Positions 4,720-58,555 of a stretch of 64,000 bases of DNA are shown here, piece after piece; positions within the stretch are counted from its first letter, which is position 1; each line of letters opens with the position of its first letter. The translations under genes were made by a program, and so were the position numbers. The notes below the pieces were generated by a model. That model ran no database searches and had not been told where the DNA came from. It saw only the letters and a list, made by a program, of their open reading frames with translations. The stretch is from Rhizobium sp. Root483D2 (GTDB taxonomy: Bacteria > Pseudomonadota > Alphaproteobacteria > Rhizobiales > Rhizobiaceae): NCBI RefSeq assembly GCF_001426685.1, contig NZ_LMFB01000038.1:1-64000 (forward strand). Direction: 5' to 3'.

Positions 4720-4798
4720 GAGCGTCTCCTCCGAATGTCTTGCCAGACCAGAACGGCACCATAGCGGATTTGGTTCCTTTTGGGCAGAGCACAAAACG

Positions 4799-4832
4799 AA
4801 AAAAGCCTGCCGCGGGAGGAGGTGCGGCAGGC
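4799..4832 (-). terminator. Intrinsic terminator of the sRNA
   Basis: GCCTGCCGC (4805-4813) pairs perfectly with GCGGCAGGC (4824-4832), and a run of six A at 4799-4804 gives the U tract on the minus strand. The loop doubles as the third anti-SD motif. Confidence 0.85.
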
Positions 4833-4913
4833 TTTCTGAAAATGACCCACGGTCGGGAGGAGGTGACCGCTGGTCGATCGCAGCTTTCCGGGAGGAGGTG
4901 GATTGCTGCGATA
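4799..4913 (-). ncRNA. alpha-r14/NfeR1-like sRNA with three anti-SD hairpin loops
   Basis: On the minus strand three successive hairpins each expose the identical loop ACCTCCTCCC (plus-strand loops at 4890-4899, 4855-4864 and 4814-4823). The stems differ in sequence but all pair, the first with two mismatches. The third hairpin is a Rho-independent terminator ending in six U. CCUCCUCCC is complementary to Shine-Dalgarno sequences. Three such loops in a transcript of about 115 nt is the architecture described for rhizobial alpha-r14 RNAs such as Sinorhizobium NfeR1, which act on many mRNAs in trans. Length, strand and promoter all fit. Individual targets are not predictable here. Confidence 0.85.
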
Positions 4914-4919
4914 AATATG

Positions 4920-28057: not shown

Positions 28058-28204
28058 ACCCCCCTCTGTCCCTCCGGGACATCTCCCCCTAAAGGGGGGA
28101 GATCGACCGAGAACTCTGTGCCACACTGGCGATTGAAGCTCTGAAGCTTGCGGTAATCTCCCCCCTTTGAGGGGGAGATGTCGGCGTCGCCGACAGAGGG
28201 GGGT
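28058..28204. repeat. Rhizobial palindromic mosaic element (type ATCTCCCCC), intergenic copy
   Basis: 147 bases bounded by perfect 13-base inverted ends ACCCCCCTCTGTC and GACAGAGGGGGGT. Inside, each end carries its own palindrome (ATCTCCCCC / GGGGGAGAT type). A related copy with the same ends and inner palindromes lies at 55312-55483 inside cobN. The form is that of non-autonomous rhizobial intergenic mosaic (RIME-like) elements. It sits within the sugar operon and would fold strongly in the mRNA. Confidence 0.85.
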
Positions 28205-28224
28205 AAAGCCTCCGCAAATACGGA

Positions 28225-51930: not shown

Positions 51931-54900
51931 CTATTCCGCCGCCGCCGAAAGGCCCTGCAGCTCGAACCGGGCCGAGTTGGAGCGTGGCGACCACAGGCCG
52001 CGGTCGATCGCCTCCATCAGCTTGTCGGTCATCTCCCGCAGTGCATTCGGGTTCTTCTCTTCCATGAACTGGCGCACGCGCTCGTCCATCACATAGGCCT
52101 GGTAGACCGCCTCGAAGTGATGGCTGCGCACGGCACCCGTCGTTGCCGCGAAGGCAAACATGTAATCGACGGTGGCTGCGATTTCGAAGGCGCCCTTGTA
52201 GCCATGGCGCATGACGCCGTCGATCCATTTCGGATTGACAACGCGGCCGCGCACCACCCGGCCGATCTCTTCTTCCAGCGAGCGGATCACCGGCTTTTCC
52301 GGGCGCGAATGGTCGTTGTGATAGATCACCGGGCGCGTGCCGGCCATCTGCTCGACGGCCAGGCTCATGCCGCCTTCGAACTGGTAATAGTCGTCGCTAT
52401 CGAGCAGGTCGTGCTCGCGGTTGTCCTGGTTCTGCACGACGGCCTCAACCGTCTTCAATCGCGCTTCAAGCAGCCCGCGCTCGGCCTTGCCGTCCTCGCC
52501 CGCGCCATAGGCATAGCTTCCCCAGGTGAGATAGGCATCGGCGAGATCGGCGCGATTGCCCCAGCCGCCCTCGTCCATCAGCGCCTGCAACCCGGCACCA
52601 TAGGCGCCGGGCTTGGCCCCGAAGACGCGGTAGGACGCGCGCCGTGCCGCATCCTTTGCCGAAACGCCGGCGGCTTCCAGCCGTTTGGCTTCCGCACGCA
52701 TGCGGGCGGCGATCATGTTGTCGGCATCATCCTCCTCGAGCCCGCCAACGGCGCGGATAGCCGTGTCGAAAAGGGCAATCTGCTCGGGAAAGGCATCGCG
52801 GAAAAAGCCGGAAATGCGCAAGGTGACATCGACGCGCGGACGGCCGAGAATAGCAAGCGGCACGATTTCATAGCCCGTCACACGCCGCGACATCATATCC
52901 CAGACCGGCTTGGTGCCGATCAGTGCCATGGCCTGGGCGATATCGTCGCCGCCGGTGCGCATGTTCGATGTGCCCCAGGCGGTCAGCCCGAACGATGTCG
53001 GCCAGTCGCCGTGATCCTGCAGATAGCGGCGGATCAACAGTTCCGCCGATTTCTTTCCGAGTTCGAAGGCCGCCGGCGTCGGTACGGCGCGGCTATCGAC
53101 CGAATAGAAATTGCGCCCGGTCGGCAACACGTCCGGCCGCCCGCGCGTCGGCGCACCCGACGGACCGGGAGCGACAAACCGTCCATCAAGACCAGTCATC
53201 AGGGCGGCAATTTCCGCATGCCCGGACTGGACGATCGACGGTTTGAGACGGGTTTCGACCTCATGCAGAACGGCGCCGGTGGCCGCCCAGCCTTGCGGGC
53301 ATGGCAAGTCGCCGGAGACAAATTTCGCCGCCAGAAGCTCGATGCGCTCGACGGTATCGCCAGCCGTCCGCCATGGGGCGTCGGATATCTCGGCGAGAAT
53401 GGCCGGTTTCGGGCCGGACCAGGGATCGGACGGGATGCAATCGAGCGGGTCGAAGGAAAAGATCCCCTCCCCAACCCCTCCCCACAAGGGGGAGGGACTA
53501 ATCTGCGGCTTGCCCGTCAGGCTACTGCCAAACTCTGCAGACGCAGCACCCTCGCTGTCTTGAACATGGGCCCCGGCGTTAGAAGCCGGGTTAAGCCCCT
53601 CCCCCTTGTGGGGAGGGGTTGGGGTGGGGTCTTTCGCAAACGCATCCGCCGCAATCGCCCGTTGCAGGCTCTGATCGCCGCCCTCGCTCTGTCCGCGGGG
53701 CACGCGCGCCAGCGCAACCGTCAGATCCGTCAGCAACCGGCCTTCCGGCGCCACCCCGAAGACATGCAGACCATCGCGGATCTGCAATTCCTTGAGGTCG
53801 CAGAGATAGGCATCGAGTTTTTCAAGCGCCTTGTCCTCGCCATCCGTGCCGGCAATGCCGGCATCATGGTCAAGGCCGATATCGCGGACGAGCTCGAGAA
53901 TTTGCTTGCTGAGCAGCCGCAGGCGCCGGGGATCACCGCCGGCCGCGTCGTAATATTCGTCGACCAGCGCTTCCAGGTCCTTCAGCGGACCATAGGATTC
54001 AGCCCGCGTCAAAGGCGGCGTCAGGTGGTCGATGATCACGGCGGCCGTGCGGCGCTTGGCCTGCGTGCCCTCGCCGGGATCGTTGACGATGAACGGATAG
54101 AGATGCGGCATCGGGCCGAAGACGGCTTCCGGATAGCAACCTTCCGACAGCGCCAGCGACTTGCCCGGCAGCCATTCGAGATTGCCGTGCTTGCCCATAT
54201 GGATGATGGCATGGGCGCCGTAGTCGCGGCGCAGACAGGCGTAGAAGGCGAGATATCCATGCGGCGGCACAAGGTCCGGCGAGTGATAGGTTTCCTTCGG
54301 ATCGATATGATAGCCGCGTGCCGGCTGGATGCCTACCAGCGTTTGCCCAAAGCGCGTCAAAGGCAGGGCGAAACGGCCATCCCGGAAAAACGGATCGCTC
54401 TGCGGCTCGCCCCACCGGCCGGTAACCTCAGCCTGAATCCGATCGGGAAGTGATGCAAAGAAGGCGTTGTATTCACTCAACGAAAACGTTTCACGGATGT
54501 CGCAATCCGCCCGCGCCGAGTTGGTCGGACCCTCCATCAGATGCGCAATCAGCGCGTCGCCACTGGCGGGGATCGAATCGATGGCATAGCCGGCGGCGGC
54601 CATTGCCTTCATCACTTCGATGGTTCCTGCAGGGGTATCGAGACCGACGCCATTGCCGAGCCGCCCGTCGCGGTTGGGGTAATTTGCCATGATGATCGCC
54701 ACGCGGCGCTCGCTTGGCGCGGCCTTGCGCAGCCTTGCCCAGTTGGCCGCAAGCTTCGCGGCAAAGGCGACCCGGTCGGCCAGCGGTTCGTGGCCGACGA
54801 TATTGGCCTCGACATCCGCGTCATAGATTGCCGCCGCCTTGAACGAGACGGCCCGCGACAGGATGCGGCCATCGACCTCCGGCAGCGCCACGTTCATGGC

Positions 54901-56088
54901 GAGATCGCGCGCCATCAGCCCCTGCGGCGAGGCTTCCCATGCGGATCGCGACGAACCGGAAAAGATCACCTGCAAAACGGGTGCATCCGAAAACTCCAGC
55001 ACGGTCGGCTTACGGTCGGCGCCGGGCGCAGAGACCGCGAACCCGGTTGCATTCATCACCACAGCCGGCGGCACCTCGCCAAAAATCGCCTGAAGCGTCC
55101 CGATCGACACGGCATCCTTGAGGCTGGACACGAATACCGGCAGCACCGTCATCCCTTCGGCACCGAGTGCTGCGATCAGGGCTTCGACGGGTTTGGTTTC
55201 GCCACTTTGAACAAGCGCGCGGTAGAAGCACAATGCGACGGTTGGGGGTTGGAGGCTTTCTCCCGTTACCGAGTTCGAACGGGATGGGACGCTCTCGTTT
55301 TGGGGACGCATACCCCCCTCTGCCCTGTCGGGCATCTCCCCCTCAAGGGGGGAGATCGCTGGGGCAATCTCTCGCAATCCCAGGTCAGACTCAGCGATCT
55401 CAAATTCGGTTAGGGATTGGTGCAGGCGCCCCGCGCCAATCTTACCCCTTGAGGGGGAAATGCCCGGCAGCGCAGCGGGGGGTATCTCTCCGAAAGCACC
55501 AAACCCAGCCGCCTTCTTCCAGGCCTCAACCCCGATCACACCCTGCCCTGGCCACCAGATACCGGCCTTCATCAGCGGTGCGGCCGATTGCGGTTTTTCC
55601 GCGCCGTCGATCAGGGCTTCGGCATAGCGCAGCAGCCGGCCCATATTGTCGGCGCCGCCCTCGGTGAAATAGGCCCACATCCGATTGCGGTCTTCGACGC
55701 CAATGGTCGAAAACGGCTCGAGCCCGGGATCGGGCTTGTCGCAGCCGGGCAGCACGGCAATCTGGAACCTGTGGGTGACGGCCGCCGCATGCAGCGCCTC
55801 CAGGACATACTGGAAATAGCTGGCGCCGCCGAGCGGCCGCACGATGATCAGTTTCGCGTGGCGGGCCGTGCGCTCGACATAGGTATCGACCGACATCGGG
55901 TGCTTGAGCGTGAGCAGGCTCGCGACCCGAAGGCTCGGCTGTGCGTCGCGCATGCGATGTGCGCCGGCGATTGACGAAAGCTCGGTATCGGCAGCCGACA
56001 GAAACAGGATATCGCCTGGCGACTGGCCGAGATCGATCGCCTCTTCGCCGTCGGTGATCGTGCCCTTCTGGGCTAGGAGGAGATGCAT
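51931..56088 (-). CDS. cobN: Cobaltochelatase subunit CobN with in-frame repeat insertions
   Basis: 1385 residues, the large ATP-dependent cobaltochelatase subunit (CobN/BchH family), which with CobS and CobT inserts cobalt into hydrogenobyrinic acid diamide. Landmarks: HLLLAQKGTITDGEEAIDLG at the start, VALCFYRALVQSGETKPVEALI, HMGKHGNLEWLPGKSLALSEG and the WGTSNMRTGGDDIAQAMAL region. Most CobN are nearer 1250-1300 residues. The excess is two low-complexity insertions encoded by palindromic repeats (53464-53629 and 55312-55483) that keep the frame. CobS/CobT are not in this window. Confidence 0.92.
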   Translation of the reverse strand: MHLLLAQKGTITDGEEAIDLGQSPGDILFLSAADTELSSIAGAHRMRDAQPSLRVASLLTLKHPMSVDTYVERTARHAKLIIVRPLGGASYFQYVLEALHAAAVTHRFQIAVLPGCDKPDPGLEPFSTIGVEDRNRMWAYFTEGGADNMGRLLRYAEALIDGAEKPQSAAPLMKAGIWWPGQGVIGVEAWKKAAGFGAFGEIPPAALPGISPSRGKIGAGRLHQSLTEFEIAESDLGLREIAPAISPLEGEMPDRAEGGMRPQNESVPSRSNSVTGESLQPPTVALCFYRALVQSGETKPVEALIAALGAEGMTVLPVFVSSLKDAVSIGTLQAIFGEVPPAVVMNATGFAVSAPGADRKPTVLEFSDAPVLQVIFSGSSRSAWEASPQGLMARDLAMNVALPEVDGRILSRAVSFKAAAIYDADVEANIVGHEPLADRVAFAAKLAANWARLRKAAPSERRVAIIMANYPNRDGRLGNGVGLDTPAGTIEVMKAMAAAGYAIDSIPASGDALIAHLMEGPTNSARADCDIRETFSLSEYNAFFASLPDRIQAEVTGRWGEPQSDPFFRDGRFALPLTRFGQTLVGIQPARGYHIDPKETYHSPDLVPPHGYLAFYACLRRDYGAHAIIHMGKHGNLEWLPGKSLALSEGCYPEAVFGPMPHLYPFIVNDPGEGTQAKRRTAAVIIDHLTPPLTRAESYGPLKDLEALVDEYYDAAGGDPRRLRLLSKQILELVRDIGLDHDAGIAGTDGEDKALEKLDAYLCDLKELQIRDGLHVFGVAPEGRLLTDLTVALARVPRGQSEGGDQSLQRAIAADAFAKDPTPTPPHKGEGLNPASNAGAHVQDSEGAASAEFGSSLTGKPQISPSPLWGGVGEGIFSFDPLDCIPSDPWSGPKPAILAEISDAPWRTAGDTVERIELLAAKFVSGDLPCPQGWAATGAVLHEVETRLKPSIVQSGHAEIAALMTGLDGRFVAPGPSGAPTRGRPDVLPTGRNFYSVDSRAVPTPAAFELGKKSAELLIRRYLQDHGDWPTSFGLTAWGTSNMRTGGDDIAQAMALIGTKPVWDMMSRRVTGYEIVPLAILGRPRVDVTLRISGFFRDAFPEQIALFDTAIRAVGGLEEDDADNMIAARMRAEAKRLEAAGVSAKDAARRASYRVFGAKPGAYGAGLQALMDEGGWGNRADLADAYLTWGSYAYGAGEDGKAERGLLEARLKTVEAVVQNQDNREHDLLDSDDYYQFEGGMSLAVEQMAGTRPVIYHNDHSRPEKPVIRSLEEEIGRVVRGRVVNPKWIDGVMRHGYKGAFEIAATVDYMFAFAATTGAVRSHHFEAVYQAYVMDERVRQFMEEKNPNALREMTDKLMEAIDRGLWSPRSNSARFELQGLSAAAE
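53464..53629. repeat. Palindromic element type AACCCCTCCCC inside cobN
   Basis: 166 bases with long inverted ends: 53464-53496 and 53596-53629 are reverse complements at nearly all positions (CCCCAACCCCTCCCCACAAG core). Each arm is itself partly palindromic. It is translated as a Pro/Gly-rich stretch (TPTPPHKGEG, then ISPSPLWGGVGEG) in CobN. A single-arm relative lies at 56206-56240. Confidence 0.85.
55312..55483. repeat. Palindromic mosaic element type ATCTCCCCC inside cobN
   Basis: 172 bases, starting ACCCCCCTCTGC and ending GCAGCGGGGGGT, flanked by TA on both sides. Inner palindromes ATCTCCCCCT / AGGGGGGAGAT match the intergenic copy at 28058-28204. In CobN it is translated as a linker including PPAALPGISPSRGK and ISPLEGEMPDRAEGG. 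Confidence 0.85.
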
Positions 56089-56205: not shown

Positions 56206-56240
56206 AACCCCTCCACCTTGTGGGGAGGGGTTGGAGAGGG
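56206..56240. repeat. Single palindromic arm between cobN and cobW
   Basis: AACCCCTCCACCTTGTGGGGAGGGGTT folds on itself and is followed by GGAGAGGG. It is the same unit as the arms of the element at 53464-53629. Confidence 0.75.
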
Positions 56241-57975: not shown

Positions 57976-58049
57976 GACAACCTCCGTGCTGGCATCGGGA
58001 GCATTTCTCCCTGGATCGGGCGGACCCCAAAATAAAGATGGCGTCCTTG

Positions 58050-58410
58050 AGGGTGGCAGGTCTCCTGGCTCACGGCGCCACGTCCTTATCAGGGGACGAA
58101 CGGGTCCGCCTCGCCTTCCCGGAGCTTTTGCGCCGCATTGCGTGACCGCAATCGGCGGGCATCGTGAAGAGGTGGACGATTCGTAGACATAGAGGCGTCC
58201 AGCCCCGGCTGATCACAATGCCGCTCCAGTGGCTTTTCCGGTTGGGCCGGTCCTGTCCGCCGCCGCGAATGCGGACAGTCCGGACGTATCGGCTTTCCCG
58301 GATGGCGAACCCTGACCGTTCTACAGTCGCGGGGTCGGCTGCGATAAGGACGCCCGGCATGGGTCCGGCCCGTCGCATTCCCATTTACTCCCGGCATGCA
58401 GCGGCATACC
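58050..58410 (-). promoter_or_regulatory. Cobalamin riboswitch upstream of cobP-cobW-cobN
   Basis: Read on the minus strand, the conserved parts appear in order: GGGAATGCGACGGG (58370-58383), the core GCAGCCGACCCCGCGACTGT (58322-58342), AAAGCCACTGG, CCGGGAAGGCGAGGCGGACCC, and the B12 box GAGCCAGGAGACCTGCC (58055-58071). A GC-rich extra arm (near 58250-58290, CCGGACTGTCC / GGACAGGACCGG) makes it longer than average. It should bind adenosylcobalamin and lower expression of the cob genes downstream. Confidence 0.92.
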
Positions 58411-58555
58411 GGGAACCATCCAACGGCTGATGATTAGGCGCTCGCCCGGATCAAGTCAATTGCGGCGCATCTGCGGACACCCGCACATCGGCAGACGAGG
58501 CTTGATCTCCGCTGCCATGCCTTTTACGACGGGTCAGAGACAGGACGGCCAAGCC

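Follow-up and report, generated by a model that had tools for sequence, protein, structure and literature searches.

REP and BIME elements, which go with RAYT transposases, consist of hairpin units in inverted pairs. The Rickettsia palindromic elements (RPE; Ogata 2000, 2002, as cited in PMC10969869 and PMC5896051) are, in the citing passages, about 150 bp long, belong to several families and lie in frame in unrelated genes. The Coxiella QMITE1/2 elements are palindromic miniature inverted-repeat transposable elements (MITEs) that are sometimes in frame, and for these cases the relevant part of PMC5896051 names hypothetical proteins as well as the 3' end of enhC. In rhizobia, the Rhizobium-specific intergenic mosaic elements (RIME) and the AB/C palindromes (Osteras 1995, as cited in PMC2573895) are described there as intergenic. 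Across the excerpts of PMC2573895, PMC5896051, PMC10969869, PMC2267715, PMC12306157, PMC2873474 and PMC5082802, in-frame cases come from Coxiella as well as Rickettsia, to whose elements a C. diphtheriae family is likened, and rhizobial repeats are treated as intergenic. In-frame palindromic insertion is already known from Rickettsia; for rhizobia no description was found in full-text literature, which covers few subscription papers and leaves the RIME and RPE originals outside, so that this absence is a weak one. Here we analysed 64,000 nucleotides of Rhizobium sp. Root483D2 (contig NZ_LMFB01000038.1, positions 1 to 64,000; the window), in which cobN, the gene for the cobaltochelatase large subunit, contains two palindromic elements in frame. 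Sequence comparison shows in-frame presence and absence of such elements, their turnover, predicted disorder of their products and slow divergence of their arms, slowest in the stems. The explanation that we find best as a whole, and probably right, is that modular palindromes insert, that in-frame copies in linkers survive, and that their stems then come under a constraint blind to codons.

In the window, cobN (51931-56088, minus strand) is a single unbroken frame of 1385 codons whose product matches Pfam CobN-Mg_chel (PF02514), and the claim of an earlier note on this DNA, that two elements lie inside the gene and keep the frame open, is borne out. Element A (53464-53629) is a pair of inverted hairpin arms (53464-53499 and 53594-53629) of 36 nt, 94% complementary and 94 nt apart, and is translated in CobN as PTPTPPHKGEG...SPSPLWGGVGEG. 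By eye, its arm is a single hairpin, CCCTCCCC-ACAAG-GGGGAGGG, plus a flanking stretch. Element B (55310-55485) is a pair of two-hairpin arms (55310-55356 and 55439-55485) of 47 nt, 87% complementary and 82 nt apart, translated as IPPAALPGISPSRGKI...ISPLEGEMPDRAEGG; its arm reads by eye as a hairpin of the TGTCC..GGACA type and a second one, ATCTCCCCC..GGGGGAGAT, and its left arm in the CobN sense is partly decayed. The 166 bases given earlier for A were exact, but B measures 176 nt rather than 172. CobN aligns with the solved structure 9uk9 in three blocks (1-187, 281-816 and 871-1382), and the two breaks are the linkers that hold the elements: site 1 (55255-55497, minus strand, aa about 198-278) and site 2 (53458-53640, minus strand, aa about 817-877), both of which differ among CobNs and are absent from 9uk9.

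Relatives were the best 80 of 197 from one scan, and with the window they gave 81 CobNs. Alignment of these proteins displayed two main variable sites, at window residues of about 199-276 and 817-876, which coincide with the breaks in the 9uk9 alignment. Elements were called with arm models at 12 bits or more and, for a third hairpin family (C), with a pattern. Elements of families A, B or C were found at site 1 in 30/81 CobNs, at site 2 in 55/81 and at either site in 60/81; on a tree from which the insert sites were excluded, the family state changed at least 19 times at site 1 and at least 25 times at site 2. The loci of the 80 relatives comprise 1,261,760 nt, of which cobN makes up 317,241 nt (25%), a sample centred on cobN by construction; there, cobN held 145 of all 183 arms: 36 of the 44 in family A and 109 of the 139 in family B. 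Most of the 38 arms outside cobN (33) lay directly upstream of it, in the cobW gap wherever this was inspected. A family draw of 81 genomes (E 1e-6, 30 loci read) added three genomes with site-1 elements (G067, G083 and G088). It also added G076 (L330, G076:C15:250568-250723, PF02514), whose CobN has a B element in frame at another, third position, following AAWGKPASVFD. Extra small palindromes were also seen nested in frame in A, B or C elements, at site 1 of L081, L097 and L084 and at both sites of L089.

It is extremely improbable that cobN, where it holds inserts, is undergoing decay or is a product of faulty assembly. The gene formed one long open frame in all 80 retained relatives (one cut by a contig end), inserts were common to independent assemblies and species, and the ratio of nonsynonymous to synonymous substitution (dN/dS) in the rest of the gene was about 0.07-0.12. 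The case on the other side is G036, where cobN falls into two frames, 836 and 411 aa long (G036:C114:19212-23140; L298, L300, L304, L305) and is either a pseudogene or an assembly error.

Natural alleles display the elements in several states. L087 (filled) differs from L129/L109 (empty) by a B insertion of 180 nt, which has GTGCGGGG on one side and TGCCTCC on the other. Genome G033 belongs, by computed kinship, to the species of the window, and its CobN frame is open over 1336 aa; relative to the window, site 1 has lost 165 nt (55 codons) in frame but retains the right end of B, and site 2 holds an everted B pair in place of the window's A. Such everted pairs, with reversed arm order and a short middle, were found at site 2 of L065, L067, L068 and G033, and arms are therefore able to rearrange as units. 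Other footprints of in-frame collapse occur in cobN of L062, L084 and L109. Copy number and the filled and empty alleles rule out chance palindromes. An ancient CobN domain is likewise ruled out, as the segments are missing from 9uk9 and from many relatives; the earlier note had asked whether all CobN proteins share them, and 21/81 had no recognised element at either site.

On the protein side, AlphaFold2 models of window fragments gave a predicted local distance difference test score (pLDDT) of about 27-39 for the site 1 insert and about 25-38 for the site 2 insert, with flanking blocks at 67-90 and 73-83, respectively (the site 2 model, A2, was poor overall, with a mean pLDDT of 49). The CobN inserts are thus predicted to be disordered, and inserted palindromes probably add floppy loops to proteins. 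Their spacers are open in one frame: in 76 inserts with at least two arms, 5948 spacer nt contained no stop in the CobN frame, whereas the two other sense frames had 42 and 99 stops and the antisense frames 23-48. An intrinsic lack of stops holds by eye for the arm consensus but fails for the spacers. The reading frame is kept, and the insert loops are tolerated.

The arms behave differently from the rest of the gene. In seven hand-made groups, proportions of synonymous (pS) and nonsynonymous (pN) differences, from Nei-Gojobori counts, were 0.024-0.154 and 0.049-0.115 for arms, 0.235-0.584 and 0.122-0.543 for spacers, and 0.333-0.476 and 0.038-0.072 for the rest of CobN. No contiguous CobN segment of arm-equal length (1,113-1,126 per group) had a pS as low as the arms, in 7/7 groups. 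Protein-level selection on the arms was unsupported, pN being about equal to pS in most of the groups. Because spacers were hardly alignable in some of the seven groups, the comparison was repeated pairwise on alignable spacers, which left 113 pairs (44 sequences) of 647 with the same state, namely those with spacers at least 0.5 identical. The median pS was 0.075 in arms, 0.414 in spacers and 0.425 in the rest of CobN; arm pS was under that of the rest of the gene in 112 pairs and under half of it in 103, the pairs being non-independent (they have branches in common) and the recognised arms a selected set. The di-haem oxidoreductase DHOR of four genomes repeats the pattern (pS 0.065 in arms, 0.498 in the spacer and 0.487 in the rest). 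In the tropici clade, where the spacer aligns across species, the mean pairwise difference among 14 sequences (L122 excluded) was 0.029 in stems, 0.191 in loops and 0.336 in the spacer; for hairpin 1, stems and loops differed with p = 5e-5, its loops differing by 0.36.

These figures bear on plain survivorship, in which selfish palindromes insert anywhere, in-frame copies in linkers survive, and arms are alike through recency and descent from the same active family. The element turnover at the CobN sites is fast, the B arms of the window itself show little conservation, and the families are mostly intergenic: in 103 of 105 listed plasmid records with a gene table (B 50/52, A 53/53), no listed gene lay under the best place, in a tally of the best 60 of 182 and the best 60 of 91 records that includes 15 listed records without a gene table and relies on an incomplete table. 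However, arms lag behind the divergence of the gene in 112 of the 113 alignable-spacer pairs, in the tropici clade and in DHOR. Where the spacers are plainly orthologs, the insertion goes back as far as the synonymous divergence of the gene, and the arms nevertheless diverge less. We therefore hold survivorship by itself to be quite unlikely.

Gene conversion, perhaps GC-biased, among the genomic copies could homogenise the arms and make a function unnecessary. Each genome contains many copies whose units mix, and the stems are GC-rich. The comparison of elements in cobN with those upstream of it gave mixed evidence on homogenisation. The two elements have an identical left stem of hairpin 1, TGTCGC..GCGACA, in L113 and L128; their right stems of hairpin 1 disagree in L113, L118 and L128, yet the cobN right stem, TGTCAGC..GCTGACA, is kept across the tropici clade. 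The hairpin-1 loops are not homogenised either, and we find conversion a doubtful explanation.

The stems might instead be kept as mRNA hairpins acting in pausing, processing or stability. The sites do fall between folded parts of a large protein, and stems vary least. Hairpin 1 exists in many self-complementary versions (94 of 117 B arms were parsed), and one-sided stem mismatches on the sense strand were G-U in 16 cases, A-C in 17 and other in 43; there is no excess of G-U over A-C, which counts against an mRNA hairpin, albeit with little power. The same arms, moreover, occur outside genes. A role in mRNA appears distinctly improbable.

All together, the arms seem to be held at the level of nucleic acid, perhaps DNA, while the protein tolerates the elements, because arm pS is far under that of the rest of the gene and the stems are lowest. 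We infer selection, not a bias of conversion, as the source of this constraint, and DNA, not mRNA, as its target. Several observations weigh against a held arm or against an intact host gene, beyond the left stem shared in L113 and L128 and the split frame of G036. Choosing the best 80 of 197 favours intact genes. Changes of family state at the CobN sites may be allele exchange, gain, loss, swap and exchange being undistinguished. Where the spacers of the seven groups barely align, the arms may have a common recent descent. L092/L094, the sole such pair of the 113, goes in the opposite direction, and the window's B compared with L060 is a weak case (arm pS 0.22-0.23, 0.228, against 0.28-0.30, 0.299, for CobN), with one arm partly decayed. 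As arms are found by similarity, decayed copies drop out, so that arm divergence is biased low. Hairpin-2 loops differ by just 0.06-0.08, and only the hairpin-1 loops are clearly free; the test of G-U against A-C on the sense strand is a weak one. Finally, the constraint on arms is dispensable, because 21/81 CobNs are without recognised elements and the element differs within one species.

The A and B families are not confined to cobN. The window's genome (G000, 6.04 Mb, 44 contigs) has at least 74 A/B arms forming 41 elements, a count that covers 36 stretches and the window and is a lower bound because only 40/72 B candidates were scored (40/41 for A). These elements include single arms besides pairs, which are A/A, B/B or mixed A/B; most spacers measure 33-95 nt, with extremes of 17 and 137. 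Pairs of one A arm and one B arm were seen at L157, L172 and L174 (G000:C9, C8 and C19). Just 3 of the 41 elements are in frame inside recognised genes, namely cobN twice and an SRP54-type gene once. In the window, as the earlier note had pointed out for positions 28058 and 56206, relatives of the two elements lie outside cobN: a B-family inverted pair at 28058-28205 and a single A-family arm at 56208-56240, in the gap between cobN and cobW (PF02492). The window also contains a cobalamin riboswitch (58038-58435, minus strand; Rfam RF00174, 41.1 bits) and the alphaproteobacterial sRNA ar14 (4798-4916, minus strand; RF02344, 97.9 bits).

Both families are multi-copy, palindromic, rhizobial and mainly intergenic in character, and their elements end in terminal inverted repeats, as MITEs do. 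No clear target-site duplication was visible between L087 and L129/L109 or between the window and G033, which is a deletion footprint and not a virgin site; TA is frequent at B element ends, not constant. A search aimed only at the Y1 (REP-associated) transposase PF01797 matched 2/26 genus genomes, not including G000, and mobilisation by RAYT was thus unsupported. The codon phase in which B starts (PPS/PPL) is shared by both CobN sites, RibD, DHOR and FtsY, and A likewise keeps to one phase in CobN, the helicase and DHOR; both are post hoc observations on few host sites.

Palindromes in frame in unrelated genes, as in Rickettsia, were found in CobN, FtsY, RibD, a UvrD/PcrA-type helicase and DHOR. 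The SRP54-type gene of G000 (L160), which we read as ftsY, has its element in frame in the acidic N-terminal region. In the helicase, 23/26 genus genomes have an empty stretch of 37 residues from EYQDT to VGDDDQSI, which we take to be motifs II and III, and A elements lie within this stretch in G003 and G008; the insertion place maps between residues 242 and 245 of PcrA 1pjr. The G004 helicase (L264) has a 39-residue insert without recognised arms, and its changed INICC flank is common to G003 and G008; this insert is perhaps a decayed element. RibD, matched in 25/26 genomes, carries a fresh B in G012 and a decayed B in the same loop of G011, with 21 genomes empty and 2 uninformative. DHOR (PF06537) has B near its N-terminus in G002, G003, G008 and G010 and A in the same region in G005; in G015 and G016 it was seen only as open 587-aa frames. 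Spanning open reading frames (ORFs) at G000 elements were collected with at least 40 codons on each side, in a tally confined to in-frame cases. Besides ftsY there were 13: ten were run against Pfam, nine of them without a match, and in the tenth (L144) an SLT_2 domain starts downstream of the element. The other three (L155, the short one of L161 and one of L173) were judged on composition only.

We propose that A and B are multi-copy modular palindromic families of Rhizobiaceae, whose arms usually form inverted pairs around variable DNA, mostly between genes. Such mobile families may now and then place a pair within a gene. The insertion would survive if it falls in a loop or disordered linker, if its length is a multiple of three, and if its phase gives a hydrophilic low-complexity peptide. 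CobN, which offers two suitable linkers, is a hotspot in which elements would be gained, swapped and lost, deletions between repeats taking some of them out in frame. After insertion, the spacer would be a nearly free loop that needs only an open frame, and the arms would be held by a constraint on nucleic acid that is blind to codons. What imposes it can be suggested tentatively: the palindromes could possibly be working DNA elements wherever they are located, with a DNA-level reader (a nucleoid, replication or recombination protein) selecting the stems in place. If this were true, parts of CobN, of the di-haem oxidoreductase and of other proteins would be written by selection on DNA, and the protein would filter for frame and hydrophilicity only. 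The suggestion that rhizobia have a parallel of the Rickettsia elements which tolerates coding insertion is upheld by the three families found in CobN, the several unrelated conserved hosts, the kept frame and the variable loops; tolerance is well supported, but exploitation is not, because the spacers drift almost freely apart from frame and the elements differ within species.

In-frame palindromic insertions were previously known in Rickettsia and, as single cases, in some other bacteria; we find them repeatedly in conserved enzymes of culturable soil bacteria, whose natural alleles are filled, empty, swapped or collapsed. With this allele series, one can test directly how repeat DNA becomes protein sequence, and the slow, codon-blind evolution of stems within genes is a new handle on the role of rhizobial palindromic repeats. 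Among the known systems, RIME and AB/C resemble A, B and C in being rhizobial, multi-copy and repetitive, and intergenic and palindromic by name and in the citing papers; they are described there as intergenic, whereas A, B and C also lie in frame within genes. By these descriptions, A, B or C is likely identical with RIME. REP/BIME-RAYT systems differ in their transposase, as 24/26 genus genomes, the window's included, had no Y1 match. The Coxiella QMITE1/2 elements, like A and B, are palindromic and sometimes in frame in genes; a comparison of arm with spacer divergence, absent from the relevant part of PMC5896051, is given here. Compared by description only, the RPE share with the present elements the palindromes, the several families and the in-frame sites in unrelated protein genes. 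In contrast to the RPE as described in the citing passages, the present elements inhabit a GC-rich host genome of about 6 Mb, with most copies seen outside genes, and within genes they occupy a few linker hotspots where families are swapped and arms diverge less than synonymous sites.

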